From a virus, in IMG/VR virus record IMGVR_UViG_3300018465_000007, positions 1 through 42,385 of that record: a stretch of 42,385 bases of DNA; one strand, 5' to 3'. The position numbers and the translations under genes were made by a program. Numbering within the stretch: the first letter of the stretch is position 1; the number at the start of each line of letters is the position of its first letter. This document shows positions 2,023 to 30,496 of the stretch, piece by piece. The notes under the pieces were generated by a model that was not told the origin of the DNA, made no database searches, and worked only from the letters and a program-made list of their open reading frames with translations.

Positions 2023-2275
2023 AGCAGTGGACGACGATGGAGCCACCCTGCCCGAACGTTGCCGTTCCGACGTAGCGGGCTCCCTCAGGAACGTGCTCGC
2101 CAGTGAAGACGAGGTACACGACACGCGCCTTGGTGTGGGCTGTCGTCTCGGCCTCGTACCAGATGACGGGCGTACCCTCCTGATTGCCGAAACTAAGCGG
2201 ACGCCACACGGAGGGCGGGTCGATTACCTGAAACGGCGCGTGGTCCAGTGCCGTCTTCCAAATCTTCCGTGACAA
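2012..2275 (-). CDS. Hypothetical protein (87 aa)
   Basis: The TTG start is supported by a near-perfect Shine-Dalgarno site (GGAGGT seven bases upstream) lying inside the 3' end of the integrase gene, giving an 83-base overlap. The protein is a compact mixed alpha/beta domain with a central V-V-Y-L-V-F-T-G strand and a C-terminal run of valines and isoleucines. No catalytic motif or family is recognised. Its overlap with the integrase could make it an integrase-linked accessory such as a directionality factor, but it is not obviously basic or helix-turn-helix, so that is speculation. Confidence 0.68.
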   Translation of the reverse strand: MSRKIWKTALDHAPFQVIDPPSVWRPLSFGNQEGTPVIWYEAETTAHTKARVVYLVFTGEHVPEGARYVGTATFGQGGSIVVHCYVK

Positions 2276-3098
2276 GTCGGATACCTCCGTTGTTCCTTGG
2301 GTCCAGACGGGCCGCTTCCGCGAGGTCCGTCAGGTCCATGCTGACATATCGTTGAGTAGTTGCTACAGTAGCATGTCCCAACAACTTTTGCAACGCAAAG
2401 ACGTTGACACCGGCCCGAACAAGCCTCGTAGCGTAATGGTGGCGCAACTGGTGAGGATGAACCTTGACGCCAGCACGCTTGGCGACCGTATCAACGATGC
2501 CGTTGACCGTATCGTACGTCAACTTGCTTCCGTCGTGGTTTGGCACCAGCCAATCGGACCGGTCGTTATCGCTGAGAGCCATAATGGCCTCAACTGACTC
2601 ATCCGTCAGCGGAACGAAGCGTTCCTTGTTACCCTTGCCGAGAACCTTGAGGACGAACCCGACGCCAGTCTCGAATGTCATCGAGCCCTTGTCGAGGTCT
2701 GTCACTTCGCTGGCCCTGAGGCCGTTGAGCAACAGGCAGATGACGGCACGGTCCCGCTTAGACTCGCAGGATGCCACCAGAGCGTCCACAATATTCGCTG
2801 CGGGGCTTTCTACCCCAACCGAGTGTCTTCGTACCGGAGCCTTGACAACCTCGAAAGGGGAATGTTCTAGGAGCCCTCGCTGGACGAGCCAACGATGGAA
2901 CGCACGCACTGTGGACCAGAAGCGCCCAGCGGACGCTTCCTTGTAGTTCGTCTCAAGGTGTCGCTTGTATGCGGTGACGCCCTCGACAGTGAGCGGAAGG
3001 CCAGCCCGGTACCAACGCTCCAAGTCCTTGCGGTACTCAGTGCGCGTTCTCGGGCTGGCCTGCATCTCACAGTAGGCGTTGACTTCTGACTCGAACAT
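2193..3098 (-). CDS. Tyrosine recombinase (phage integrase)
   Basis: 301 residues from the ATG at 3098, one base after the previous stop and preceded by GCAGGGG. The N-terminal half (residues 1-95) resembles a SAM-like core-binding domain. The C-terminal half carries the complete catalytic set: R128 (in GLRASE), K155, H216 with R219 (HQLRH), H242 (LGHAT) and nucleophile Y251 (RYVSM). This catalyses site-specific integration or excision, or resolves genome multimers. It points to a temperate lifestyle. No attP core was recognised next to it. It sits within the leftward operon rather than beside a repressor. Confidence 0.95.
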   Translation of the reverse strand: MFESEVNAYCEMQASPRTRTEYRKDLERWYRAGLPLTVEGVTAYKRHLETNYKEASAGRFWSTVRAFHRWLVQRGLLEHSPFEVVKAPVRRHSVGVESPAANIVDALVASCESKRDRAVICLLLNGLRASEVTDLDKGSMTFETGVGFVLKVLGKGNKERFVPLTDESVEAIMALSDNDRSDWLVPNHDGSKLTYDTVNGIVDTVAKRAGVKVHPHQLRHHYATRLVRAGVNVFALQKLLGHATVATTQRYVSMDLTDLAEAARLDPRNNGGIRLVTEDLEDGTGPRAVSGNRPALRVASA

Positions 3099-3099
3099 C

Positions 3100-3342
3100 T
3101 TACCCCTGCAACTTGAATGACCAGTTCTGCTCGTTCTCGCCAAGCATCATCCGCAGGCGAAGCCCGCAGTTGAGGCAGTCAACGAAGCACGAGATGCGCT
3201 GACGCGAGAACCGGTCAACCGTGTAGGTCGGCTTGGTTCGGATGTTGTACTCCGTGTGCCCGCAGTTGATGCACGGCGGGTACTGCGGGGTGTTGTCGAT
3301 GTACTTCTCACCGAGCCTTGCGAGCCTTGCGAGTAGACCCAT
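3100..3342 (-). CDS. Zinc-ribbon protein (80 aa)
   Basis: It carries two CxxC knuckles, C-I-N-C-G-H near residue 24 and C-L-N-C-G-L near residue 56, separated by a basic strand region with several arginines, as in small nucleic-acid-binding zinc ribbons. The start ATG at 3342 follows AAAGGAAG by six bases. It lies directly upstream of the integrase, one base apart, so the two are co-translated. The function is unknown; DNA binding or transcription control are possibilities. Confidence 0.75.
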   Translation of the reverse strand: MGLLARLARLGEKYIDNTPQYPPCINCGHTEYNIRTKPTYTVDRFSRQRISCFVDCLNCGLRLRMMLGENEQNWSFKLQG

Positions 3343-3469
3343 CGGATGCTTCCTTTCCCTTCTTAGCGATGACCGGCAGCGTAACGGTGAGCAGGCCCCG
3401 GGAGTTGACGGGCATAGCGGACTTCCGCTTCGCCAACTTCTTCTCTCGCTGCTCGTAGTTCTTCGGCAC
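3308..3469 (-). CDS. Small basic protein (53 aa)
   Basis: The GTG start at 3469 has an AAGGAGG site six bases upstream. Third-position GC is high in this frame and low in the competing frame, so this is the coding frame from here on. The product is rich in Lys and Arg with an A-M-P-V-N-S-R-G strand segment and a K/R-rich C-terminus, suggesting nucleic-acid binding. It overlaps the previous gene by 107 bases and the next by 35. No family is recognised. Confidence 0.6.
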   Translation of the reverse strand: MPKNYEQREKKLAKRKSAMPVNSRGLLTVTLPVIAKKGKEASDGSTRKARKAR

Positions 3470-3566
3470 GCTGGCCCTCCTTGTGCTTGCCATCGTACTT
3501 CATGCGACGGCGCTTGTCAAGCCGGTTCAGTGCCTTCACTGCGCGCTTGTCAAGTGTGGCGTACAT
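3363..3566 (-). CDS. Small basic protein (67 aa), 3' half overprinted
   Basis: It starts at ATG 3566 after GAGGGATAACA. The first 35 residues are charged, helical and lysine/arginine rich with codon use like its neighbours. The last 30 residues read through the region coded by the overlapping 53-aa gene in another frame and look non-coding in composition. Either this is a genuine overlapping pair, or a frameshift has split one longer basic protein. Confidence 0.55.
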   Translation of the reverse strand: MYATLDKRAVKALNRLDKRRRMKYDGKHKEGQRAEELRAAREEVGEAEVRYARQLPGPAHRYAAGHR

Positions 3567-3568
3567 TG

Positions 3569-3748
3569 TTATCCCTCGACTGTGACGACTGTGACGGTGA
3601 AATACTCACCAGTGTCCGACTCGTACTGGCCCTCCACATAGAGGTACCAGACGTTGCCCTTCCGATAGGCAATCCCACCCCCGGCCTCGATGAGGCGAGG
3701 GGTAGGATACCCTGTCTGGACAACTCCGTCAATGGCGACTCGCTTCAC
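3569..3748 (-). CDS. Small hypothetical beta-rich protein (59 aa)
   Basis: The GTG at 3748 overlaps the preceding stop (GTGA) and has a GAGGGAG site upstream. The reading gives MKRVAIDGVV then a G-G-G-I-A-Y strand, a W-Y-L-Y-V-E-G-Q-Y strand and a final F-T-V-T-V-V-T-V-E-G, clearly an all-beta small domain such as an SH3-like barrel. No cysteines. It ends two bases before the next start. Function unknown. Confidence 0.65.
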   Translation of the reverse strand: MKRVAIDGVVQTGYPTPRLIEAGGGIAYRKGNVWYLYVEGQYESDTGEYFTVTVVTVEG

Positions 3749-3951
3749 GCGGATGTCTCCCTCTCGACCGCTTCGAGCACCTTCTCGCAGCGCGCAATCT
3801 TGTTGCGCGCATGGTCAAGGTCACGGTGCACGAAGTCGCGGTCGTTATACGCACCGTACAGCCGGTCCGCAGTGTTGCGTTCCGAGACTGCCTGTGCCTT
3901 CACGAGCCCAGCCAGCCACTTGATGCTGGCCAGTTCCTCGTCAGTGAACAT
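3745..3951 (-). CDS. Small helical protein (68 aa)
   Basis: The ATG at 3951 is preceded by AAGGAGAAACA, the start context used by many genes here. The sequence is charged and heptad-like (L-A-G-L-V-K-A-Q ... C-E-K-V-L-E-A-V), suggesting a coiled coil or helical hairpin. It contains one cysteine and no membrane segment. No function recognised. Confidence 0.65.
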   Translation of the reverse strand: MFTDEELASIKWLAGLVKAQAVSERNTADRLYGAYNDRDFVHRDLDHARNKIARCEKVLEAVERETSA

Positions 3952-3960
3952 TGTTTCTCC

Positions 3961-4347
3961 TTACAGCCTGTTTCTCTTGGCGCGCTCTAGGCGCATCTTC
4001 TGGACGGACGGGGTGATGAACTTGGGGCACCCGCAGACGAGCGAGCCAGCGTTCCAGCACGTCCCGTCATCGGGGTCGCGGTCGGACCACGCCCCCTCGC
4101 TGTGGGGGTGCTTGCACGATGCGCACAAGACCTCTCCCCACGGCGAGATGTTGTAATCCGACAGGATGGTCACGACCTTGGTGTGCTCGTCAGCGACGGG
4201 CGCTTCAAGGGCCTTCTTTGCCATGCACGAGGCACACAGTTCTCGGTCTGTGTACTCAGCGCACGGCCTCTGTGCACCCCAAAACATGCGGATGCACCCA
4301 ATGCGTGCGGTTGCTTCTGCAACCTCGCGCAGCGTCGGTCCGTTCAC
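3961..4347 (-). CDS. Cys-rich protein (128 aa)
   Basis: A GTG at 4347 with GGGAGGAACAA upstream is preferred over the longer frame, whose first 60 residues are Ser/Arg/Thr-rich read-through of the previous gene. The protein has clusters C-A-S-C (twice), a C-x-W-N-A-G segment and C-G-C near the C-terminus, with interspersed histidines, consistent with two zinc sites. The start overlaps the stop of the small membrane peptide gene by four bases. Function unknown; probably a metal-stabilised binding protein. Confidence 0.65.
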   Translation of the reverse strand: MNGPTLREVAEATARIGCIRMFWGAQRPCAEYTDRELCASCMAKKALEAPVADEHTKVVTILSDYNISPWGEVLCASCKHPHSEGAWSDRDPDDGTCWNAGSLVCGCPKFITPSVQKMRLERAKRNRL

Positions 4348-4430
4348 TTGTTCCTCCCGAACCACAGGTCCGCGATGTGCCAGATGAGATAGAGGACGAA
4401 CAGCAGGAACAGGAGCGTGTTGCCGTCCAT
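4344..4430 (-). CDS. Tiny single-span membrane peptide (28 aa)
   Basis: The frame starts at ATG 4430 two bases after the lipoprotein gene's stop and ends in a TGA that overlaps the next GTG. It encodes MDGNTLLFLLFVLYLIWHIA followed by a short polar/basic tail: one hydrophobic helix with a charged C-terminus. The length and tidy overlaps argue for a real gene. It may help the adjacent lipoprotein at the membrane, which is inference. Confidence 0.6.
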   Translation of the reverse strand: MDGNTLLFLLFVLYLIWHIADLWFGRNK

Positions 4431-4432
4431 CG

Positions 4433-4822
4433 TTACTTGATGTCGATGTCGGGGATGATGGTGGACGGACGGAAGATGACCTTGTAGTGGTCAGCCGAGA
4501 CGTTCGCACCCTCCAACTGCTCGACAAAGTAAGTCACGTTGTCGCTCAGTCCGAGAAAGTGCTTCTTGTACTGACCTTCGCCGGTCTTGCACGTCACGTT
4601 CAGTTCGTACTGCGTGCGGTCATTGCCGAGCGAGCAGTAGCCCTCGATGGACAGGAGGTACTGGTCGGTGATGCCGTTCATGAAGACGACACGCCGCAGA
4701 ACCTTGAACTGGTCGGCCTCCTGACCGATGTTGTACGAGATGGTGTCGGCCTCACGCGAGCAGGCACCCACTGTGAGCATGACCATCAGGCCCAGCATGA
4801 GGGCCGTGAGCATCTTCTTCAA
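4433..4822 (-). CDS. Secreted lipoprotein
   Basis: Starting at TTG 4822, just after the upstream stop, the N-terminus reads MKKMLTALMLGLMVMLTVGA then a Cys. This is a basic n-region, a hydrophobic core and a lipobox (V-G-A-C), with lipidation expected at residue 21. The mature part of about 108 residues is a beta-rich domain with a further pair of cysteines. Actinophages often encode such lipoproteins, some linked to exclusion of superinfecting phages; that role is inference here. It would be anchored on the outer face of the host membrane. An ATG at residue 4 is an alternative start, but its spacing to the SD is poor. Confidence 0.75.
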   Translation of the reverse strand: MKKMLTALMLGLMVMLTVGACSREADTISYNIGQEADQFKVLRRVVFMNGITDQYLLSIEGYCSLGNDRTQYELNVTCKTGEGQYKKHFLGLSDNVTYFVEQLEGANVSADHYKVIFRPSTIIPDIDIK

Positions 4823-4823
4823 G

Positions 4824-5237
4824 TTAGAACTCTCCTTCCACGTAGTCGTACTTGTTCTCGACGGGGCCACAACAGCCGTCGCAGCCGTGGACGAACCACG
4901 TGTCAGTCCCGTCGCGCCAGTTGAGGAACGCAGCGGAGTCAGGGTTCGGATGGCCTACCCCATGCTCGCAGATGTCCTCGATGAGCGTGGTGCTGCGCAT
5001 GACCTGACGAGAGCCGGTCAACTTGTGCAGCGTCGGCTTGTGCAGGACGCATCCCTTCGGAGCACCCTGCTTGCGGGTGGCCTTGCACTGCTCCTTGGTG
5101 TGGGTTCTCCCGCCCTTGCCGATGTAATCGGACACGCCCACGCTCATCTCAGCCATGATGGCCTGCTTCATGAGCGCACGAGCAAACGGGTCGGTGAACC
5201 CAAGGTCATCGAGCAGCGTCTCGACCTTGCTTCCCAT
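4824..5237 (-). CDS. Hypothetical protein (137 aa) with C-terminal Cys cluster
   Basis: It begins MGSKVETLLDDLGF and continues as a helical N-terminal half, then a basic middle region, and a C-terminal segment H-G-C-D-G-C-C-G. Other cysteines at K-E-Q-C, G-C-V-L-H and I-C-E-H-G could complete a zinc site. The start overlaps the stop of the neighbouring zinc-ribbon gene by one base. No family recognised. Confidence 0.7.
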   Translation of the reverse strand: MGSKVETLLDDLGFTDPFARALMKQAIMAEMSVGVSDYIGKGGRTHTKEQCKATRKQGAPKGCVLHKPTLHKLTGSRQVMRSTTLIEDICEHGVGHPNPDSAAFLNWRDGTDTWFVHGCDGCCGPVENKYDYVEGEF

Positions 5238-5539
5238 TACTTGCCTCCCTTCTGGCAGTGTGGACAGTTGGGGTCATAGCGGGTCCATCCGCACTCGGGG
5301 CAGAACCCTCCATCGGCATAGGCGAACCCGCAGTTTGGGCAGGGCTCGATAACGGCCTGACCCGTAACACCCTTGAGGACTGGTCCCTTAGTAACCGTTC
5401 CCGTGAGGTCAGGCTTCGCCGTCTGCTCGTAAGGCTTCGGGTCCTTGCGGACCACGGTGATGCGCTCACCCTTCTTTGCATGGGCCGTTCCGTCCTTCTT
5501 GACGTATCCCTTGCGGGGCTTGCCCTTAGGCCAAGGCAT
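5237..5539 (-). CDS. Double zinc-ribbon protein (100 aa)
   Basis: The N-terminal 60 residues are Lys/Pro-rich and likely disordered (MPWPKGKPRKGYVKKD...). The C-terminal 40 residues hold three knuckles, C-P-N-C-G, C-P-E-C-G and C-P-H-C, enough for a rubredoxin-like or double zinc ribbon. The basic tail plus ribbon suggests nucleic-acid binding. A strong promoter lies just upstream at 5566-5594, so this gene starts a transcription unit. Confidence 0.75.
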   Translation of the reverse strand: MPWPKGKPRKGYVKKDGTAHAKKGERITVVRKDPKPYEQTAKPDLTGTVTKGPVLKGVTGQAVIEPCPNCGFAYADGGFCPECGWTRYDPNCPHCQKGGK

Positions 5540-22161: not shown

Positions 22162-22479
22162 ATGAACGAAATCATCGACCTCGTAGGTATCTCAGGACTC
22201 GTGGCTATGTTCTCAGGCATTTCGATGGGTTGGTACCTCGCGGCGCTGAACCAGTACGTTCCGGTACGCAGTGTTCGTCGCTCGCTCATCACCAACGTTG
22301 TCGCCTCCATCTCGTTCATTCTGCCGGTCGCCCTTGAGCGCACCATCACGCAGCATCCGAACTTGCAGCCCGACCAGTGGTTCGTCATGTGGGCACTGCT
22401 CATGACGTTCATGATGGCAGCAGATGTCTCCAACTACATCATCTGCCACATGGTAAGGGACCGCAGAAACAACAGTTGA
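22162..22479 (+). CDS. Three-span membrane protein, holin candidate (105 aa)
   Basis: ATG 22162. Hydrophobic segments near residues 8-30, 42-60 and 74-96, basic ends (R-S-V-R-R, R-D-R-R-N-N-S). Small multi-span proteins like this are common phage holins, but no endolysin is next to it, so the call is inference. Confidence 0.68.
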   Translation: MNEIIDLVGISGLVAMFSGISMGWYLAALNQYVPVRSVRRSLITNVVASISFILPVALERTITQHPNLQPDQWFVMWALLMTFMMAADVSNYIICHMVRDRRNNS

Positions 22480-22504
22480 CAGGCACGGTAATCCGTGCTA
22501 GTCT
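22476..22504 (+). promoter_or_regulatory. Rightward promoter with palindromic spacer
   Basis: TTGACA, 17-base spacer, TAGTCT. The spacer contains the perfect inverted repeat GCACGG-TAAT-CCGTGC, a probable operator. It overlaps the stop codon of the three-span gene and drives the short basic-protein gene ahead of the tRNA array. Confidence 0.72.
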
Positions 22505-22588: not shown

Positions 22589-22771
22589 ATGGACGTGCTC
22601 CTGCCGAAGCCGAAGGGCAAGAAGCAGAAGAACAAGGGGCGCAAGGTCGGGCGTAACTACCGTTGGGGCGAGGGCTTCGACGGCAAGAGCCAGACTCACA
22701 CGATGACCAAGTACCGTGCTCGTCACGGTATCGGTCCCGGCCCTCGAAAGAAGAAGTTGCAATCCGCATAG
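22589..22771 (+). CDS. Small highly basic protein (60 aa)
   Basis: ATG 22589 with AAAGGAGGT upstream. Very Lys/Arg/Gly-rich (MDVLLPKPKGKKQKNKGRKV ... R-K-K-K-L), probably RNA- or DNA-binding. It is the last gene before the tRNA array and shares its 3' end with the array promoter at 22757-22785, so a role near tRNA or rRNA is conceivable but unproven. Confidence 0.7.
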   Translation: MDVLLPKPKGKKQKNKGRKVGRNYRWGEGFDGKSQTHTMTKYRARHGIGPGPRKKKLQSA

Positions 22772-22785
22772 GATTGTGATATAGT
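22757..22785 (+). promoter_or_regulatory. tRNA-array promoter with palindromic spacer
   Basis: TTGCAA, 17-base spacer, TATAGT. An inverted repeat AATCC-GCATA-GGATT overlaps the -35 and the spacer. About 40 bases before the first tRNA; the transcript begins just before the hairpin at 22795-22818. Confidence 0.72.
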
Positions 22786-22823: not shown

Positions 22824-22909
22824 GGAACCTTGGCAGAATGGTAAATGCGCATCGCTGGAAACGATGAGACTGCAAGGTCACAGAGGTTCGAGTCCTCTAG
22901 GTTCCGCCA
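22824..22909 (+). tRNA. tRNA-Ser(GGA)
   Basis: Acceptor GGAACCT / AGGTTCC, anticodon loop CTGGAAA, long variable arm as expected for serine, encoded GCCA end. 86 bases. Reads UCC and UCU. Confidence 0.93.
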
Positions 22910-22911
22910 AT

Positions 22912-22996
22912 GGATGCTCGTATAGGAGCACTAAACCGCCTCGAAAGCGGTGATTACCGAAAGGTAGTAGGGGTTCGAGTCCCTTAGCATCCGCCA
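22912..22996 (+). tRNA. tRNA-Ser(CGA)
   Basis: Acceptor GGATGCT / AGCATCC, anticodon loop CTCGAAA, long variable arm (hairpin TACC-GAAA-GGTA), CCA encoded. Reads UCG. Confidence 0.93.
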
Positions 22997-22998
22997 AT

Positions 22999-23074
22999 CT
23001 CTCGCTAGCACAGTGGACAGTGCAGGACGGTCCTAACGTCAAGGTCACAGGTTCGAGTCCTGTGCGAGAGGCCA
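22999..23074 (+). tRNA. tRNA-Arg(CCT)
   Basis: Acceptor CTCTCGC / GCGAGAG, loop GTCCTAA, CCA encoded. Reads AGG, a codon rare in this phage's genes. Confidence 0.9.
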
Positions 23075-23076
23075 AT

Positions 23077-23161
23077 GGAAGTTCGCATAGGCGTGCTTAT
23101 CGCTCTTGAAAAGCGTGATTGCCGAAAGGCAGTGTGGGTTCGAGTCCTACAACTTCCGCCA
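23077..23161 (+). tRNA. tRNA-Ser(TGA)
   Basis: Acceptor GGAAGTT / AACTTCC, loop CTTGAAA, long variable arm with GAAA loop, CCA encoded. Reads UCA and possibly other UCN codons. Confidence 0.93.
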
Positions 23162-23163
23162 AT

Positions 23164-23249
23164 GGAAACGACCCGAATGGTCGAGGAACCTGTTTGCTAA
23201 ACAGGCGCGCTGTAAGGCGTTTAGGGTTCGAGTCCCTACGTTTCCGCCA
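23164..23249 (+). tRNA. tRNA-Ser(GCT)
   Basis: Acceptor GGAAACG / CGTTTCC, loop TTGCTAA, long variable arm, CCA encoded. Reads AGC/AGU. Completes the serine set together with GGA, CGA and TGA. Confidence 0.93.
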
Positions 23250-23251
23250 AT

Positions 23252-23326
23252 GGTTACTTAGCCAAGAGGAAAGGCATGTGGTTGCAACCCACATCATCGT
23301 CGGTTCGAGTCCGACAGTAACCTCCA
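23252..23326 (+). tRNA. tRNA-Cys(GCA)
   Basis: Acceptor GGTTACT / AGTAACC with discriminator U73 (a cysteine identity base), loop TTGCAAC, CCA encoded. Confidence 0.93.
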
Positions 23327-23330
23327 CTAA

Positions 23331-23395
23331 ATGTCTACCACCGTGTAGGTCAGTCGGACACCCGAAGCGCGCTTGAACGAGGGGGTTGCAGACAT
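23331..23395 (+). other. Inter-tRNA spacer with tRNA-sized closed repeat
   Basis: The gap between tRNA-Cys and tRNA-Ala starts ATGTCT and ends AGACAT (six perfect pairs, 65 bases apart), the size of a tRNA but without a recognisable T-arm or anticodon arm. It may be a decayed tRNA or a small structured RNA; a promoter overlaps its 3' end. Confidence 0.4.
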
Positions 23396-23415
23396 CGGTC
23401 GAGTTGTGATACGAT
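23386..23415 (+). promoter_or_regulatory. Internal tRNA-array promoter
   Basis: TTGCAG, 18-base spacer, TACGAT, 14 bases before tRNA-Ala. An inverted repeat GTGAT / ATCAC surrounds the -10 box. It would start a second tRNA transcript. Confidence 0.6.
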
Positions 23416-23428
23416 ACATCACTGCAAT

Positions 23429-23503
23429 GGGGTTGTAGCACAATGGGAGTGCAGTTGCCTTGCAAGCATCAGGTTCGGGGTTCGAGTCCCCGCTTCTCCA
23501 CCA
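23429..23503 (+). tRNA. tRNA-Ala(TGC) with tandem U-U acceptor mismatch
   Basis: Anticodon loop CTTGCAA. Acceptor GGGGTTG / CTTCTCC keeps the alanine identity pair G3-U70 but has T-T at 5:68 and 6:67. T-arm is normal and CCA is encoded. Only alanine tRNA in the window. Confidence 0.85.
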
Positions 23504-23505
23504 AT

Positions 23506-23586
23506 AGGCCACGTACTAACCTGTCAGGTGACAGGAAGCGTCTCCAAAACGCTCAGTCAGGGGTTCGAGTCCTCCGGGGTCTGCCA
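23506..23586 (+). tRNA. tRNA-Trp(CCA), atypical D-arm
   Basis: Anticodon loop CTCCAAA on the stem AGCGT / ACGCT. Acceptor AGGCCAC / GGGGTCT has one mismatch and one wobble. The D-arm is unusual: a tight CCTGTC-AGGT-GACAGG hairpin instead of the normal arm. CCA encoded. Identity from the anticodon is clear, function less certain. Confidence 0.7.
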
Positions 23587-23588
23587 AA

Positions 23589-23664
23589 CAGGGTGTAGCG
23601 CAGTTGGTAGCGCACTCGCTTCGGATGCGAGTGGTCGTAGGTTCGAGTCCTACCGCCTTGACCA
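23589..23664 (+). tRNA. tRNA-Pro(CGG)
   Basis: Acceptor CAGGGTG / CGCCTTG (wobbles), loop TTCGGAT, standard D- and T-arms, CCA encoded. Reads CCG. Confidence 0.9.
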
Positions 23665-23666
23665 AT

Positions 23667-23753
23667 GGGGCCGATGGTAAATGGGTATAAATCACCTGTC
23701 TGTAAAACAGTCGCCTTCTGGCTATGTCAGTTCAAATCTGACCGTCCCCACCA
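23667..23753 (+). tRNA. tRNA-Tyr(GTA)
   Basis: Loop CTGTAAA, long variable arm as in bacterial tyrosine tRNAs, T-loop TTCAAAT, acceptor GGGGCCG / CGTCCCC with one mismatch, CCA encoded. 87 bases. Confidence 0.9.
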
Positions 23754-23755
23754 AT

Positions 23756-23830
23756 GCCTTCCTAGCACAATGGTAGTGCAACACTTTCGTAAAGTGTAGG
23801 TTCACGGTTCGAGTCCGTGGGTTGGCTCCA
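23756..23830 (+). tRNA. tRNA-Thr(CGT) with tandem U-U acceptor mismatch
   Basis: Loop TTCGTAA. Acceptor GCCTTCC / GGTTGGC pairs except T-T at 4:69 and 5:68. Other arms normal, CCA encoded. Reads ACG. Confidence 0.88.
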
Positions 23831-23831
23831 T

Positions 23832-23907
23832 GCCCGAGTAGTTTAGCGGCGAAAACGGTTGGCTTACATCCAACTTACCGTAGGTTCGAGTCCTACCTTG
23901 GGTACCA
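23832..23907 (+). tRNA. tRNA-Val(TAC)
   Basis: Acceptor GCCCGAG / CTTGGGT, loop CTTACAT, CCA encoded. Reads GUA and GUG. Confidence 0.9.
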
Positions 23908-23908
23908 T

Positions 23909-23983
23909 CAGAGTGTAGTGTAGTGGCAACACACCGCGTTTGGGGCGCGGTAGCCGGGGGTTCGAGTCCCTCCACTCTGACCA
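23909..23983 (+). tRNA. tRNA-Pro(TGG)
   Basis: Acceptor CAGAGTG / CACTCTG (perfect), loop TTTGGGG, CCA encoded. Reads CCA and wobble codons. Confidence 0.92.
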
Positions 23984-23985
23984 AT

Positions 23986-24061
23986 GCCTTGCAAGCACAT
24001 CTGGATGTGCACATCCTTGGTAAGGATGAGGTAGAGGGTTCGAGCCCCTCGCTTGGCTCCA
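23986..24061 (+). tRNA. tRNA-Thr(GGT) with tandem U-U acceptor mismatch
   Basis: Loop TTGGTAA. Acceptor GCCTTGC / GCTTGGC with T-T at 4:69 and 5:68, the same defect as tRNA-Thr(CGT). CCA encoded. Reads ACC/ACU. Confidence 0.88.
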
Positions 24062-24063
24062 AT

Positions 24064-24137
24064 GGCCCTGTCGTCTAATGGCAGGACACCACCCTCTCAA
24101 GGTGGGAACCGGGGGTCAGTACCCCGTGGGGCTACCA
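24064..24137 (+). tRNA. tRNA-Glu(CTC) with non-standard T-loop
   Basis: Loop CTCTCAA on CCACC / GGTGG. Acceptor GGCCCTG / TGGGGCT. The T-loop reads GTCAGTA in place of TTCRANY, so T54 and A58 are lost; no other tRNA here does this. CCA encoded. Confidence 0.82.
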
Positions 24138-24138
24138 T

Positions 24139-24212
24139 GCGTTACTGGTGTAATGGCAACACAACAGTCTTCCAAACTGTTGTTACGAGTTCGAGTCTCG
24201 TGTGACGCTCCA
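24139..24212 (+). tRNA. tRNA-Gly(TCC)
   Basis: Acceptor GCGTTAC / GTGACGC, loop CTTCCAA, CCA encoded. Reads GGA/GGG. Confidence 0.92.
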
Positions 24213-24213
24213 T

Positions 24214-24288
24214 CGCGGACAGGACAAACGGCAAGTCACCGGGCTCATAACCCGGAGATACTCGGTTCGACTCCGAGGCCCGCAACCA
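24214..24288 (+). tRNA. Initiator tRNA-fMet(CAT)
   Basis: Loop CTCATAA on the stem CCGGG / CCCGG, i.e. three consecutive G-C pairs next to the loop. The first acceptor pair is C1-A72 (CGCGGAC / GCCCGCA). Both features define bacterial initiator tRNA. CCA encoded. Confidence 0.9.
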
Positions 24289-24289
24289 T

Positions 24290-24365
24290 ACCTTCGTAGT
24301 TCAACGGATGAACTGGGGTCTTCTAAGCCCTGAGTATGCAAGTTCGAGTCTTGTCGAAGGTGCCA
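24290..24365 (+). tRNA. tRNA-Arg(TCT)
   Basis: Acceptor ACCTTCG / CGAAGGT (perfect), loop CTTCTAA, CCA encoded. Reads AGA/AGG. Confidence 0.92.
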
Positions 24366-24367
24366 AT

Positions 24368-24444
24368 GGTGGTCGAAGCCAAACAGGTTGAGGCACCGGG
24401 TTGTGACCCCGGTTAACTGGGTTCGAGTCCCAGCAATCACCCCA
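24368..24444 (+). tRNA. tRNA-His(GTG)
   Basis: Loop TTGTGAC on CCGGG / CCCGG. An encoded extra G at the 5' end faces discriminator C73, the histidine identity pair. CCA encoded. Confidence 0.9.
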
Positions 24445-24446
24445 AT

Positions 24447-24522
24447 AGTCGCTTAGCGCAGTGGTTAGCGCACTTGCTTGACATGCAAGAGGTCGTCAGT
24501 TCGAGCCTGACAGTGACTACCA
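24447..24522 (+). tRNA. tRNA-Val(GAC)
   Basis: Acceptor AGTCGCT / AGTGACT, loop TTGACAT, CCA encoded. Reads GUC/GUU. Confidence 0.92.
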
Positions 24523-24524
24523 AT

Positions 24525-24601
24525 ACCGACGTACTCCAATCGGCAGAGAGAGCAGGCTCAAACCCTGTACAGTGCGAGTTCGAGTCTCGCGGTCGGTACC
24601 A
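24525..24601 (+). tRNA. tRNA-Leu(CAA) with short variable loop
   Basis: Loop CTCAAAC. D-arm has the three-pair, leucine-type form (CTC / GAG with GGCAGA). The variable region is only ACAGT (five bases), so the usual long leucine arm is missing; 77 bases in total. Reads UUG, a codon frequent in this phage. Confidence 0.88.
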
Positions 24602-24610
24602 AATAAAGAG

Positions 24611-24639
24611 TTGACAAGTTCCTTCTTGTCTGCTACACT
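24611..24639 (+). promoter_or_regulatory. Promoter of the RNase P RNA gene
   Basis: TTGACA, 17-base spacer, TACACT. The inverted repeat GACAAG / CTTGTC overlaps the -35 and spacer. Predicted start at about 24646, just before the P1 helix of the RNase P RNA. Confidence 0.8.
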
Positions 24640-24645
24640 CTCGTC

Positions 24646-24958
24646 AAGAGATTGATGGACTGACGCTCTACGGAGAGGAAAGTCCCCGCTCCCAGTTGCA
24701 GCGTTGAGGCTAACGGCCTTCCACCGCAAGGTGCGCATTAGAGCAACAGTGACGATGCCGGGAAACCGGAGTGAAACGGGCAATCTGAACGTGGAGAAAG
24801 ACAGACACCTACTGGGGAGCAACGCCACGGTGTCGGGTGTTCGAAATGGAGTTGTGCGGTAACGTACAATCAAGAAGGATGTCAGTCACCTGTTGTGGGA
24901 GGTCTTCGGACCGACTGGACCACAGGGACACAGAACGGGGCTTACAGTCAATCTCTGA
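24646..24958 (+). ncRNA. rnpB: RNase P RNA (catalytic subunit), phage-encoded
   Basis: About 310 bases with the universally conserved RNase P RNA landmarks in order. P1 is a nine-pair helix (AGAGATTGA at 24647, TCAATCTCT at 24948). P2 is GACTGAC (24658) with GTCAGTC (24881). CR-I is GAGGAAAGTCC (24675). A GAGCAACAGTGACGATG stretch is followed by GTGAAACGGGCAATCTGAAC (24771), then GGAGCAA (24816). The CR-IV-like AGAAGGAT comes just before the P2 3' strand. CR-V is ACAGAACGGGGCTTACAG (24930), whose CGGGG can pair with CCCCG of CR-I to make P4. RNase P removes 5' leaders from tRNA precursors. It lies inside the phage tRNA array with its own promoter and no overlapping ORF of merit. It is somewhat shorter than bacterial type A RNA (about 380-400). 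Confidence 0.93.
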
Positions 24959-24964
24959 CAACAT

Positions 24965-25039
24965 TGGGAAGTGGCCAAATGGTAAGGCAACACGCTCTGA
25001 ACGTGTAGAGTCTAGGTTCGAGTCCTAGTTTCCCAGCCA
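24965..25039 (+). tRNA. tRNA-Gln(CTG)
   Basis: Acceptor TGGGAAG / TTTCCCA, loop CTCTGAA, CCA encoded. Starts a few bases after the RNase P RNA. Reads CAG. Confidence 0.92.
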
Positions 25040-25041
25040 AT

Positions 25042-25118
25042 CGGGTCTTCGTCTAACGGACTAGGACTTCTGACTTTCAATCAGGACAATACGGGTTCGA
25101 CCCCCGTAGGCCCGACCA
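25042..25118 (+). tRNA. tRNA-Glu(TTC)
   Basis: Acceptor CGGGTCT / AGGCCCG, loop CTTTCAA, T-loop TTCGACC, CCA encoded. Reads GAA/GAG. Confidence 0.9.
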
Positions 25119-25122
25119 ACAT

Positions 25123-25198
25123 TCTCGTGTGGTGTAATGGTTGCATGACCGGCTGTTAACCGGTGAGGTTCTAGGTTCGAGTCCTAGCATGAGAGCCA
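25123..25198 (+). tRNA. tRNA-Asn(GTT)
   Basis: Acceptor TCTCGTG / CATGAGA, loop CTGTTAA, CCA encoded. Confidence 0.92.
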
Positions 25199-25200
25199 AT

Positions 25201-25277
25201 ACTGTCGTACCCCAATAGGCAGAGGGAACAGGTCGAGAGCCTGTACAGTCCGGGTTCGAGTCCCGGGGGCAGTACCA
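25201..25277 (+). tRNA. tRNA-Leu(GAG) with short variable loop
   Basis: Loop TCGAGAG on ACAGG / CCTGT. Leucine-type D-arm (CCC / GGG with GGCAGA). Variable region ACAGT only. Acceptor ACTGTCG / GGGCAGT ends in a G-G mismatch. CCA encoded. Reads CUC/CUU. Confidence 0.88.
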
Positions 25278-25279
25278 AT

Positions 25280-25356
25280 ACCGCTGTAGCACAATGGATT
25301 AGTGCAAAACGCTACGAACGTTTAGGTTGGGGGTTCGAGTCCTCTCAGCGGTGCCA
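25280..25356 (+). tRNA. tRNA-Arg(ACG)
   Basis: Acceptor ACCGCTG / CAGCGGT (perfect), loop CTACGAA, CCA encoded. Needs A34-to-inosine editing (host TadA) to read CGC; reads CGU, CGC and CGA. Confidence 0.92.
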
Positions 25357-25358
25357 AT

Positions 25359-25435
25359 ACCGGAGTACCCCAAATGGCAGAGGGAGCGCGTTCAGACCGC
25401 GTATAGTGTGAGTTCGAGTCTCACTTTCGGTACCA
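25359..25435 (+). tRNA. tRNA-Leu(CAG) with short variable loop
   Basis: Loop TTCAGAC on GCGCG / CGCGT. Leucine-type D-arm. Variable region ATAGT only. Acceptor ACCGGAG / TTTCGGT. CCA encoded. Reads CUG. Confidence 0.88.
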
Positions 25436-25438
25436 AAT

Positions 25439-25513
25439 GGGTCGCTAGCACAATGGTGGTGCAGGAGCCTCTTACCCTCCCGGTTCCCGGTTCGAGCCCG
25501 GGGCGACTCTCCA
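25439..25513 (+). tRNA. tRNA-Lys(CTT)
   Basis: Acceptor GGGTCGC / GCGACTC, anticodon loop CTCTTAC, T-arm CCCGG / CCGGG, CCA encoded. The only lysine tRNA; reads AAG, which is nearly the sole lysine codon in the phage genes. Confidence 0.88.
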
Positions 25514-25515
25514 AT

Positions 25516-25591
25516 ATCTACGCAGCACGATGGTCCGTGCAACTCCCTGATAAGGAGTAGGCTGGTGGTTCGAGTCCACCCGTAGGTACCA
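25516..25591 (+). tRNA. tRNA-Ile(GAT)
   Basis: Acceptor ATCTACG / CGTAGGT, loop CTGATAA on ACTCC / GGAGT, CCA encoded. Reads AUC/AUU. Confidence 0.92.
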
Positions 25592-25592
25592 T

Positions 25593-25668
25593 GCTCCCCC
25601 AGTTTGCGGGTAGAAATGTCGGCTTGTCACGCCGAAGACAGCGGGTTCGAGTCCCGTAGGGAGCGCCA
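25593..25668 (+). tRNA. tRNA-Asp(GTC)
   Basis: Acceptor GCTCCCC / AGGGAGC (last pair mismatched), loop TTGTCAC on TCGGC / GCCGA, discriminator G, CCA encoded. Confidence 0.92.
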
Positions 25669-25670
25669 AT

Positions 25671-25746
25671 GCGAATGTAGCACAGTCGGCAGTGCGTCAC
25701 CTTGCCAAGGTGAAGGTCCCGGGTTCGAGGCCCGGTATTCGCTCCA
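25671..25746 (+). tRNA. tRNA-Gly(GCC)
   Basis: Acceptor GCGAATG / TATTCGC, loop TTGCCAA on TCACC / GGTGA, CCA encoded. Reads GGC/GGU. Confidence 0.93.
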
Positions 25747-25748
25747 AT

Positions 25749-25823
25749 GCCCTTGTCGTTCAACGGCTAGGACTCCGCTCTTGTAAGGCGGGTATCTCGG
25801 TTCAAATCCGAGTGGGGGCTCCA
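25749..25823 (+). tRNA. tRNA-Thr(TGT)
   Basis: Acceptor GCCCTTG / TGGGGGC (wobbles, no U-U mismatch, unlike the other two Thr tRNAs), loop CTTGTAA, T-loop TTCAAAT, CCA encoded. Reads ACA. Confidence 0.92.
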
Positions 25824-26003
25824 ACCATATTGGTCCGTTGGCGGGGAACCGGACGTTAAACCGAACCGTCTCAATGATACGGCTACGTCGTGAGGAAACT
25901 CGAACCACACGATATGCCCAAGGGGGTCGCCCTACTTTCGGGTTCGCGGCGACTGGGATGTCTGGAAACGGAGCATCGCGGGAACTCTCCTACTCCGCAT
26001 CAA
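25824..26003 (+). ncRNA. Structured non-coding RNA candidate between tRNA-Thr and tRNA-Phe
   Basis: 180 bases with no ORF of merit and dense local pairing. GTCCG / CGGAC and CCGT / ACGG lie near the 5' end. A TCGTG / CACGA stem encloses a GAG-GAAA-CTC tetraloop hairpin. GTCGCC (25926) pairs with GGCGAC (25948). GATG (25957) pairs with CATC (25974) around TCTG-GAAA-CGGA. GCGG (25978) pairs with CCGC (25995). The two GAAA tetraloops and successive hairpins suggest a folded, functional RNA. I recognise no family; it is not a tRNA or tmRNA. Confidence 0.55.
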
Positions 26004-26004
26004 T

Positions 26005-26081
26005 GCTGCTGTAACTCAGTTCGGTAGAGTAGGAGCCTGAAAAACTCCCGGTCGTGGGTTCGAGGCCCACTGGCAGCACCA
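26005..26081 (+). tRNA. tRNA-Phe(GAA)
   Basis: Acceptor GCTGCTG / TGGCAGC, loop CTGAAAA, D-arm with CTC / GAG, T-arm normal, CCA encoded. Confidence 0.9.
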
Positions 26082-26083
26082 AT

Positions 26084-26157
26084 CGCAGTGTAGCCAAGCG
26101 GCAAGGCAGGGGTTTCATAAGCCTCCATCGGTGGTTCGAGTCCACCCACGGCGACCA
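26084..26157 (+). tRNA. tRNA-Met(CAT), elongator (or Ile2)
   Basis: Acceptor CGCAGTG / CACGGCG (one mismatch), loop TTCATAA on GGGGT / GCCTC. Lacks the initiator's G-C run. It could be elongator methionine, or an isoleucine tRNA whose C34 is changed to lysidine; sequence alone does not decide. Confidence 0.85.
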
Positions 26158-26158
26158 T

Positions 26159-26233
26159 TGGGTTCTGGCCAAACGGTAAGGCAAGTGCCTTTGAAGCACT
26201 AGACTCTAGGTTCGAGTCCTAGGAGCCCAGCCA
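26159..26233 (+). tRNA. tRNA-Gln(TTG)
   Basis: Acceptor TGGGTTC / GAGCCCA, loop CTTTGAA, CCA encoded. Last tRNA of the array. Reads CAA/CAG. Confidence 0.92.
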
Positions 26234-26239
26234 AAGAGG

Positions 26240-26622
26240 GTAGCACGGGAGACGATGACAAAGCCCCGTGACATCTGCTGGACGGCGAGCGTCCCACTTC
26301 CTTCGAACTATATAAGGGCCTCGCTTAGCGGCGGGGTCTGGAACGTGCCGGAATAGTCTCTGCCGCAGAGTGGGGACATATCGGGACTACGGTGGCAGAT
26401 AACTGCAAAGGGTCCTACGTGGGCAGTGGCCGACGCGATGAGCGGGCTGCGTCTAAACGGGGTACGTGCAGGAGCCTTGCCAGAGGCGAAACCATGCCGG
26501 GAGGCTAACGTAGGGTTGCGTGGTTACTAGTTCACTGCTATTGACCAACTTTGCACGCGCATGTGGGTAGGCAATCCCATCGTTCACCACTTAGCCTAGT
26601 GGTCAAAAGGGCGACTAAATGA
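26240..26622 (+). ncRNA. Large ornate non-coding RNA candidate after the tRNA array
   Basis: About 380 bases lacking coding character and full of hairpins: CACGGG / CCCGTG (26244, 26265), GGACG / CGTCC (26280, 26290), CTCTG-CCG-CAGAG (26358), GCAG-ATAA-CTGC (26395) inside GGAC / GTCC, GACGC / GCGTC (26432, 26449), AGCCT / AGGCT (26473, 26502), TGGG / CCCA (26564), and ACCACT / AGTGGT (26586, 26598). A terminator hairpin follows. Phages are known to carry very large structured RNAs (GOLLD, ROOL) at this position beside tRNAs; I cannot match it to either from memory, so it may be a new class. Confidence 0.6.
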
Positions 26623-28863: not shown

Positions 28864-29076
28864 ATGGACACCCGCGACCTAGACCGTCTTGTAACAAAGA
28901 CCGAACTCAATCCGTTCGTGAAGATTGCACTTCGCCGTGTGCGCAAGGCTGTCGAGGCGGGCGATGTTACTGGCTTCACGCTCAGTAAGCACTCATGGAG
29001 CGTCAAGGTCGCTGACCCGAAGGGCCTGTCCTGCACATGGACCTTTACATTGAAGGATGAAAATGGCAGCAAGTAG
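28864..29076 (+). CDS. Small hypothetical protein (70 aa)
   Basis: MDTRDLDRLVTKTEL then a basic helix (K-I-A-L-R-R-V-R-K-A-V-E-A) and a beta C-terminal half (S-W-S-V-K-V ... T-W-T-F-T-L-K-D). It overlaps the portal start by 14 bases. No family recognised. Confidence 0.68.
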   Translation: MDTRDLDRLVTKTELNPFVKIALRRVRKAVEAGDVTGFTLSKHSWSVKVADPKGLSCTWTFTLKDENGSK

Positions 29077-30496
29077 AAGAACGACTCGAACACGCGCTGC
29101 CTCTCCGGTGGTTGAGCGTACTCAGATTACTCAGCCGACTCCGAGGCTCACTGCTAACTTTGGCATCCTTGGTGTATCCAAGGACGGGTCCTCTCTCTAC
29201 TTTGACCGTGGCCGTAAGGCGAGGTACGCGACGTACTACGAAATGTACCGTCAGCACCCGACCGTTCGTGCCGCAGTTGAGAAGATTGCAAAGGTCGCCG
29301 TGGCGAACGGCTACCGCTTCGTCCCGTCTGTTGCTGACGAGAACCTCGCAGAACAGCGCGTAGACGCGCTTCGCAAGTTCTTCCGTTCATCCAACGGTAG
29401 CCAGTTGCTACGTTCGGCGTACCGCGACCTTCTGATTTACGGTGAGGCATTCTGGCTCGTCGTTCAGGACGGTTCGACGGCCAAGAACCCGCTGAGCGCC
29501 CGCAGGCTGCACCCGCAGTTCATGGACGAGAAGACTTCGAGCGGCGAACTCACCGGCTGGCGTTTTGGCCCGCTGACTGAGAACGAGAACGCAATCGAGT
29601 ACAAGCGCGAACAGGTCATCCACTTCAAGTTCGATGACCCGGATAATGACATCCGTGGCCTGTCGCTCCTGTCATCGCTCGAACTGACAGTTGCCTCAGA
29701 CCTGTTCGCCATGAAGTTCAACGAGCGGTTCTTTGAGAACTCCGCTCACACTGGCGTCATCTTCAACATGAAGAACTCCACCCCCGACGAGGTTGAGCGC
29801 AACCGTACGTGGATGGAGCAGAACTACGTCGGTACCGAGAACGCACACAAGCCTATCATCCTCGAAGGCGACATCGAAGTCAGCAAGTCTGTTTCGACCC
29901 GCGCCGAGATGCAGTTCATTGAGGGTCGTAAGTTCAACCGCGAGGAAATCCTCTCGGTACTCGACGTTGACCCGTCCAAGATTGGCATTAACGAGAACAG
30001 CAACCGCAGTGTTTCCAAGGAAGCGGACAACACCTTCCGTCAGGAAAACATCGCGCCGTTGCAGTTGGTTATCGAGGAAGAAATCAACAACCATCTCATC
30101 CTGACGTTGTTCGGTTGGGAAGACATCCTGTTCCGTCAGAACGACGCAAGCCGTCGTGACCAGTTGGACATGATGAAGTTGTATGCAGAGGCAGAGCGTC
30201 TCGGCGTTATGTCCATCAACCAAGTCAAGGGTGAACTCGGGTTGCCTCCGACAAAGGGCGGCGATGTTCACTTCGTTCAGACCGCAGCGGGAGCAATCCC
30301 TGTCGAGTGGCTGGACGACGTAGCCAAGAGATTGATTGGTCCTTCGGGCCAGCCGATTACCGGGCAGGGTACTGAAAACCAGCCACCTACTGCCGACCAA
30401 GGTCCAAACCCAGCACAGCCAAGCGGCTCCGGGGCTCCGAACAACACGGGCTCAGGAACCGACACTCAGGCTGGGACTGACCAAAACGACGGGTAA
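29063..30496 (+). CDS. Portal protein
   Basis: 477 residues. ATG 29063 has AAGGA five bases upstream, better than the ATG two codons earlier. HK97/SPP1-type portal features: an N-terminal segment with Y-Y-E-M-Y-R-Q-H-P-T-V-R-A, L-I-Y-G-E-A-F-W-L-V, H-P-Q-F-M, a conserved G-L-S-L-L-S-S-L, F-F-E-N-S-A-H-T-G-V-I-F, and an S-K-I-G-I-N-E-N-S-N-R-S-V segment. The dodecameric ring through which DNA is pumped. The C-terminal 60 residues are a Pro/Gly/Gln/Asn-rich disordered tail. Confidence 0.93.
   Translation: MAASRRTTRTRAASPVVERTQITQPTPRLTANFGILGVSKDGSSLYFDRGRKARYATYYEMYRQHPTVRAAVEKIAKVAVANGYRFVPSVADENLAEQRVDALRKFFRSSNGSQLLRSAYRDLLIYGEAFWLVVQDGSTAKNPLSARRLHPQFMDEKTSSGELTGWRFGPLTENENAIEYKREQVIHFKFDDPDNDIRGLSLLSSLELTVASDLFAMKFNERFFENSAHTGVIFNMKNSTPDEVERNRTWMEQNYVGTENAHKPIILEGDIEVSKSVSTRAEMQFIEGRKFNREEILSVLDVDPSKIGINENSNRSVSKEADNTFRQENIAPLQLVIEEEINNHLILTLFGWEDILFRQNDASRRDQLDMMKLYAEAERLGVMSINQVKGELGLPPTKGGDVHFVQTAAGAIPVEWLDDVAKRLIGPSGQPITGQGTENQPPTADQGPNPAQPSGSGAPNNTGSGTDTQAGTDQNDG

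Follow-up and report, generated by a model that had tools for sequence, protein, structure and literature searches.

A bacterial type A RNase P RNA encoded within a phage tRNA array

An RNase P RNA gene between tRNA-Leu and tRNA-Gln

The DNA analysed here (the window, a 42,385-base fragment comprising positions 1 to 42,385 of IMG/VR record IMGVR_UViG_3300018465_000007) encodes a bacterial type A RNase P RNA between two tRNA genes of a dense phage tRNA array (Table 1). An RNA with RNase P landmarks had been proposed between tRNA-Leu and tRNA-Gln in an earlier, sequence-only reading, and both its identity and its flanks were borne out: the Rfam scan gave RF00010 as the sole RNase P match in the window (cmscan; 137.2 bits against a curated cut-off of 100 bits), spanning the full model (1-367) without truncation, and ARAGORN placed the two tRNA genes on either side. 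The feature had been taken to start at 24605, a span that takes in the promoter; the RNA proper begins at about 24647. The E-value of 3.6e-42 ruled out a chance motif match. An archaeal RNase P RNA (RF00373) was also considered and rejected, as the window reached 47.2 bits with that model, where 84 are required, vs 137.2 bits with RF00010. The contig encodes a terminase large subunit (TerL) and a portal protein, which lie 2-4 kb from the RNase P RNA, together with ThyX, ribonucleotide reductase and integrase-family genes, and therefore belongs to a tailed phage.

Table 1. Positions of the RNase P RNA, its structural elements and neighbouring features in the window
Feature	Position	Strand	Details
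RNase P RNA, bacterial type A (phage rnpB)	24647..24960	+	RF00010, 137.2 bits, E 3.6e-42; covariation, 10 distinct sequences
P1, 5′ strand	24647..24655	+	9 bp; pairs with 24948-24956
P1, 3′ strand	24948..24956	+	
P2, 5′ strand, GACUGAC	24658..24664	+	7 bp; pairs with 24881-24887; 100% paired, 3 covarying pairs
P4, 5′ strand, AAG(U)CCCCG in CR-I	24680..24688	+	Bulged U at 24683; 100% paired, 3 covarying pairs
P4, 3′ strand, CGGGGCUU in CR-V	24936..24943	+	
P6, 5′ strand, GUUGC	24695..24699	+	100% paired, 3/5 pairs covary
P6, 3′ strand, GCAAC	24819..24823	+	In P17 loop, part of GGAGCAA
P18 with GUAA tetraloop	24851..24870	+	
Sigma70-type promoter, TTGACA-17-TACACT	24611..24639	+	Extended -10 (TGC); predicted start about 24646
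Palindrome, GACAAG-TTCCTT-CTTGTC	24613..24630	.	Inside promoter spacer
tRNA-Leu(CAA), upstream neighbour	24525..24601	+	45 nt before RNase P RNA; ARAGORN
tRNA-Gln(CUG), downstream neighbour	24965..25039	+	4 nt past RNase P RNA match; proposed cis substrate; ARAGORN
tRNA array, 33-35 genes	22824..26233	+	Median spacer 2 nt; ARAGORN
Promoter-like site, TTGCAA-17-TATAGT	22757..22785	+	Before first tRNA of array
Terminase large subunit (TerL), phage hallmark	27152..28642	+	tblastn to phage terminases; 49 viral relatives
Portal protein	29057..30496	+	PF04860, E 2.1e-48

The secondary structure was taken from the Rfam alignment, with helices added by hand. The nine-pair P1, the 7-bp P2, CR-I, CR-V and P4 with its bulged U are as the sequence-only reading had described them. 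The core by which we defined membership of the RF00010 class, CR-I GAGGAAAGUCC and CR-V ACAGAACxxGGCUUA forming P4 with a bulged U, is present, with 8/8 P4 pairs in all ten distinct sequences of the family described below and compensatory changes in two of them (L059 and L060). The P6 pseudoknot, which together with P16/P17 distinguishes RNase P RNA of type A from that of type B, joins GCAAC in the P17 loop (24819-24823) to GUUGC upstream of P7 (24695-24699); it has 5/5 pairs in all ten sequences, and three pairs change on both sides. P18 has 8/8 pairs with a GNRA loop (GUAA) in the window, and 90% of its cells are paired across the family. Further helices in the window RNA are P5, P7-P12, P15-P17 and a P19-like stem between P2 and P4. 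The motif GGAGCAA (about 24816) had been listed as a conserved landmark, a role that it did not retain: it is not CR-IV but P17-loop sequence, whose GCAAC is the 3′ strand of P6. The CR-IV strand of the window RNA is GGAGAAAG. In RNase P RNAs the L15 GGU pairs with the tRNA 3′ CCA, and L15 reads GGGU at 24835-24838 of the window; it reads GAGU in four relatives (L054 and L056-L058), and the motif is absent in L051.

The phage RNA shares with bacterial type A RNA (rnpB, RF00010; E. coli M1 RNA) CR-I, CR-V, P1, P2, P4 with its bulged U, P5, P6/P16/P17, P7-P12 and P18 with its GNRA loop. It differs in being phage-encoded, in lying within a tRNA array and in having no terminator of its own. The structural differences are a P3 reduced to a short stem (CUC-UACG-GAG, with a UACG loop), the absence of P13/P14, the P19-like stem between P2 and P4, and a P4 of CCCCG/CGGGG. 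No sequence able to hold P13/P14 was found in the window RNA between GUGAAACGG (24771) and the CR-IV strand; these are usual peripheral helices of type A that stand outside its defining core. For a type A RNA, 137.2 bits is a modest score. Judged by its core structure, the phage RNA is a genuine type A RNase P RNA. The P4 5′ strand CCCCG was absent from real bacterial P RNAs in an exact scan of 84,980 genomes, and a host search with the phage P4 strand over these genomes returned P RNAs of Thermoplasmata archaea and otherwise only chance coding-sequence matches.

Conservation and covariation among related phages

A search with TerL identified 49 viral relatives. The RNA was found in 10 of the 29 relative records searched, with scores of 128-140 bits in eight and 90-94 bits in two, giving 11 full copies with that of the window, 10 of which are distinct. 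All full copies sit between tRNA-Leu(CAA) and tRNA-Gln(CUG). Two further contigs (L002 and L010) begin within the RNA, just upstream of tRNA-Gln, and when these are counted the slot is occupied in 13/13 family members that cover it. The relatives with the RNA come from many IMG data sets and from other metagenomes. There was no RNA match in four relatives with differently ordered tRNA arrays (L026, L028, L044 and L045; 46-61% TerL identity), nor in the searched relatives that have no tRNA array.

Identity of the P RNA among the distinct copies ranges from 99.7% down to 62%. Across the ten sequences, 95.5% of cells are paired in the named structure, a percentage biased towards the window because the structure was partly derived from it, and 46 of the 85 pairs are changed on both sides at least once, a count less affected by that bias. 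The covariation score was 0.41 compared with 0.135 ± 0.012 in shuffles, and 0/500 shuffles scored as high. As a control, the 3′ partners were slid by 1-3 columns, after which only 32-39% were paired. P2, P4, P5, P6, P8 and P12 are 100% paired, and every one of them varies in sequence. P4 CCCCG/CGGGG is remade as CGGCG/CGCCG in L059 and L060, and P6 GUUGC/GCAAC is remade as GCUGC/GCAGC, GUGAC/GUCAC or GAGCC/GGCUC, with pairing intact in both helices; core columns are invariant among the copies. The fold has been kept with covariation that includes the long-range P4 and P6, and is therefore maintained by selection as RNase P RNA. Such a signature is that of a working RNase P RNA and not of a relic. 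Because TerL and the portal gene lie on the contig, relatives carry the RNA in the same slot and its helices covary, we regard it as phage-encoded.

For L008 (G003) and L060, TerL is 82% identical to that of the window, whereas the P RNA is only 62% identical and is closest to that of L059. This difference suggests that the array with its P RNA was probably exchanged between related phages.

Promoter, 3′ end and proposed role of the RNA

The sequence-only reading had also given the RNA a consensus promoter of its own, and TTGACA-17-TACACT was found 7-8 nt upstream of the RNA 5′ end, agreeing with the consensus at 10/12 positions and with a predicted start that agrees with that 5′ end. A sigma70-like promoter with a 17-bp spacer was read by eye at the same place in all other full copies; the spacers differ, and the -35 boxes are weaker in L051 and L060. 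No terminator-like site was found on the plus strand between 22300 and 27200. In 8/10 distinct copies, 1-6 nt separate the end of the RNA match from tRNA-Gln, the exceptions being L051 (109 nt) and L059 (698 nt). A gap of 1-6 nt leaves no room for a terminator, so the 3′ end of the RNA must come from processing, and since the enzyme that cuts at the 5′ end of a tRNA is RNase P, an RNase P cut at the 5′ end of tRNA-Gln is the simplest source. The mature 3′ end of the window RNA would in that case be 24964, which is 8 nt beyond P1. Abutting tRNA-Gln and having no terminator, the RNase P RNA is itself predicted to be part of a pre-tRNA transcript.

The 3′ CCA is encoded in 33/33 of the ARAGORN tRNA genes, and with the median spacer of 2 nt this means that cutting by RNase P would by itself be enough to separate most of the tRNAs. 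The earlier count of 35 tRNAs stood in part: ARAGORN finds 33, an Rfam match at 24064-24134 brings the number to 34, and a weak tRNA-like stretch at 23507-23581 is perhaps the 35th. Dense clusters with very short spacers are also characteristic of the tRNA arrays of T4, mycobacteriophages and huge phages; those arrays have been described as dependent on host RNase P, whereas here the RNase P RNA is phage-encoded. The protein subunit RnpA (PF00825), which a complete phage-encoded holoenzyme would need, had a match in 0/13 phage records, all of which are fragments and which include RNA carriers of 111, 63 and 51 kb; in the control, PF00825 had a match in 10 of 14 genomes. From the lack of an RnpA gene in these fragment records, we infer that the phage RNA uses host RnpA.

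Taken as a whole, the reading that we consider probable is that the phage RNase P RNA, with host RnpA, matures the phage array and is self-released from it. The RNA would be transcribed from its own promoter inside the array and assemble with the host RnpA protein, and the holoenzyme would cut the closely spaced phage pre-tRNAs at their 5′ ends, supplying extra RNase P capacity for about 34 additional tRNAs. Cleavage at the 5′ end of tRNA-Gln, either in cis or by a second copy acting in trans, would make the 3′ end of the RNA. Given the 1-6 nt gap and the absence of a terminator, we propose that the enzyme is in this way freed from its own substrate transcript. Maturation of the phage's own tRNAs is the best-supported role, as judged from the position of the gene, which agrees with the sequence-only reading; that reading had further speculated that host RNase P may be limiting, altered or a defence target. 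The distances to tRNA-Gln in L051 and L059 count against the proposal, as they indicate that abutment is not obligatory. The shortened P3, the missing P13/P14, the modest score and the L15 changes in several relatives weigh against it too.

The main rival, compatible with maturation of the array but in itself unlikely, is that the phage P RNA takes the place of the host RNA on RnpA, which would turn tRNA maturation towards the phage tRNAs or dampen the processing of host tRNAs; catalysis may then matter less than protein capture. Because no phage protein subunit was found, any holoenzyme must use host RnpA, and the strong promoter consensus (10/12 positions) would let the phage RNA compete for it. 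However, a decoy needs no intact P4, bulged U, P6 or CR-I/CR-V core, yet all of these have been kept with covariation, and the location within an array of substrates suggests array processing. It is quite improbable that the RNA is a general supplement of ribozyme acting mainly on substrates other than the phage tRNAs, such as phage mRNAs, other non-coding RNAs or host precursors, and that it lies where it does because phages collect small RNA genes in their arrays. Although bacterial RNase P cleaves mRNAs and other RNAs as well (review PMC11143913), and insertions separate the P RNA from tRNA-Gln in two family members, the slot is fixed in 13/13 covering members, unrelated phages likewise have the RNA within tRNA arrays, and array-less relatives gave no RNA match. 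A captured, non-functional remnant of host rnpB, or bacterial contamination or mis-assembly, is scarcely credible and already refuted unless the alignments are wrong: such misfiling does occur among INPHARED rnpB records, but the RNA occupies the same slot in phage-TerL relatives drawn from many IMG data sets, which rules out contamination of the window, TerL and portal lie within a few kb (2-4 kb), and 46 pairs are compensated while core columns are invariant.

Among the trans-acting ribozymes of cells, RNase P RNA is the classic example, and laboratory RNase P RNA-tRNA conjugates cleave in cis. As in these engineered conjugates, the P RNA is predicted here to be covalently joined to a pre-tRNA; they are laboratory constructs, whereas the joint transcript of the phage is predicted to be natural, with the tRNA 3′ of the P RNA. 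The theta ribozymes (HDV-like; PMC10879173) offer another comparison, as they too are phage ribozymes in a tRNA region with a proposed role in tRNA processing. They are, however, small and self-cleaving and have been proposed to act on 3′ trailers (PMC10879173), in contrast to a trans-acting RNase P RNA that would act on 5′ ends. Natural fusions of P RNA and tRNA could be used to investigate cis cleavage and the processing of multimeric pre-tRNAs, the latter an open question according to a 2024 review (PMC11143913), and the diverged viral set could be compared with cellular P RNAs. If the proposed role is correct, phage takeover of translation would widen from tRNAs and synthetases to the enzyme that matures tRNAs, with the implication that infection can be limited by host RNase P or can proceed around it.

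Three promoters near the array in the window (22476-22504, 22757-22785 and 24611-24639) contain, between their -35 and -10 boxes, a palindrome whose arms are 6 bp long. Similar promoter palindromes were seen in L007 (7075), L009 (2902), L012 (1585), L016 (6927) and L017 (1996). The arms differ between the window promoters (GCACGG/CCGTGC, CAATCC/GGATTG and GACAAG/CTTGTC) and in most phages. Such a palindrome was present in 3/15 promoter-like sites of the window vs 0.07 in Markov-shuffled controls; its varying sequence argues against a single sequence-specific repressor. Two other stretches of the array region were noted. Just past the last tRNA, 26327-26590 weakly resembles manA RNA (24.4 bits against a cut-off of 55.2; E 0.002) and is possibly a diverged structured RNA. 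A gap of ~180 nt between tRNA-Thr(UGU) and tRNA-Phe(GAA) (25824-26004), kept in position in most relatives (170-331 nt) and with no gene assigned to it, may hold another RNA.

RNase P RNAs in other large phages

The viral collection was scanned with two DNA patterns built on CR-I and CR-V, and 19/34 records that matched them had an RF00010 match, several of these inside tRNA arrays and tightly flanked. The sequence-only reading had not known of such an RNA as a routine phage feature and had missed that the same embedding in tRNA arrays recurs in other large phages. The order Cys-P RNA-Gly, with 6 nt on each side, occurs in G033 (463 kb) and G035 (155 kb) and likewise in G042. Thr-P RNA-Gly occurs with gaps of 0 to 2 nt in G039 (162 kb) and G051, and with 61 nt downstream in G050 (190 kb). 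Other arrangements are Trp-P RNA at 0 nt in G045 (363 kb), Leu-P RNA at 17 nt in G048 (98 kb) and Gln-P RNA-Val at 71 and 106 nt in G034 (168 kb). A reduced match in a 171-kb phage (G062, also L112; 221 nt, 71.7 bits), placed as Arg-P RNA-Arg with slight overlaps with the tRNA-Arg genes, is possibly a minimal P RNA.

The TerL models PF17289 and PF03237 miss most jumbo phages, and PHROGs were used instead. Phage hallmarks were found in G035 (TerL, portal and endolysin), in G039 (baseplate wedge, tape measure and virion proteins) and, pooled, in the G034/G045 set (TerL and portal); TerL was also found in G048 and in G062. In G030 and G049 (372 and 497 kb), the P RNA has no tRNAs nearby and the two Pfam models tried gave no TerL; some records of this kind may be bacterial.

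In a tree of 28 P RNAs, the window family formed a single clade (100/99). One common origin for all phage P RNAs was rejected by the AU test (p 1e-4), albeit with a difficult alignment and long branches, and this rejection of a single clade indicates that phages have taken up P RNA more than once. The deep branches of the tree are weakly placed, and it points to no particular donor. With slightly less than even confidence, we suggest a broader picture that combines a natural self-releasing ribozyme-substrate transcript, several separate uptakes of P RNA into the arrays of large phages and a partial autonomy from the host in tRNA maturation.

In the literature searched, whose scope excluded preprints and most subscription papers, we found no account of RNase P RNA as a virus gene, still less as a recurrent one, and could not find its setting (virus-encoded, embedded in tRNA arrays and recurrent) described there. 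Megaphages analysed under full Rfam yielded only tRNAs and one tmRNA (PMC8172020), and RNase P is not mentioned in a survey of huge phages (PMC7162821). Five P RNAs were compared by blastn, a method not very sensitive for this RNA, with 50,697 phage records, and no true phage isolate with a similar RNA was found; the matches were either faecal contigs that lack annotation or bacterial DNA deposited as phage. The rnpB-bearing INPHARED records that are bacterial DNA include Salmonella AGRM01000002, the flank of Acinetobacter phage MD-2021a and Microcystis phage MaAM05. The last of these (MW495066.1; L187) has fabI, engB, mtgA and glyS with an rnpB-like stretch near 115323, and looks like a bacterial chromosome fragment filed as phage.

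An archaeal RNase P RNA (180 bits) was seen in a dense cluster of 19 tRNAs at 2119-5452 of JAIBJG010000095.1 (L117), which belongs to a Euryarchaeota MAG with another P RNA elsewhere. Genes of cellular appearance, among them an MFS transporter-like ORF, lie on this contig; it was rejected as a viral parallel and treated as probably cellular, maybe a chromosomal contig of another archaeon. Among 86 proteins encoded near the other phage P RNAs (L136-L145), three matched phrog_850, annotated as 'RNA-binding protein' (best E 6.9e-79), and these proteins are perhaps linked to phage RNA handling.
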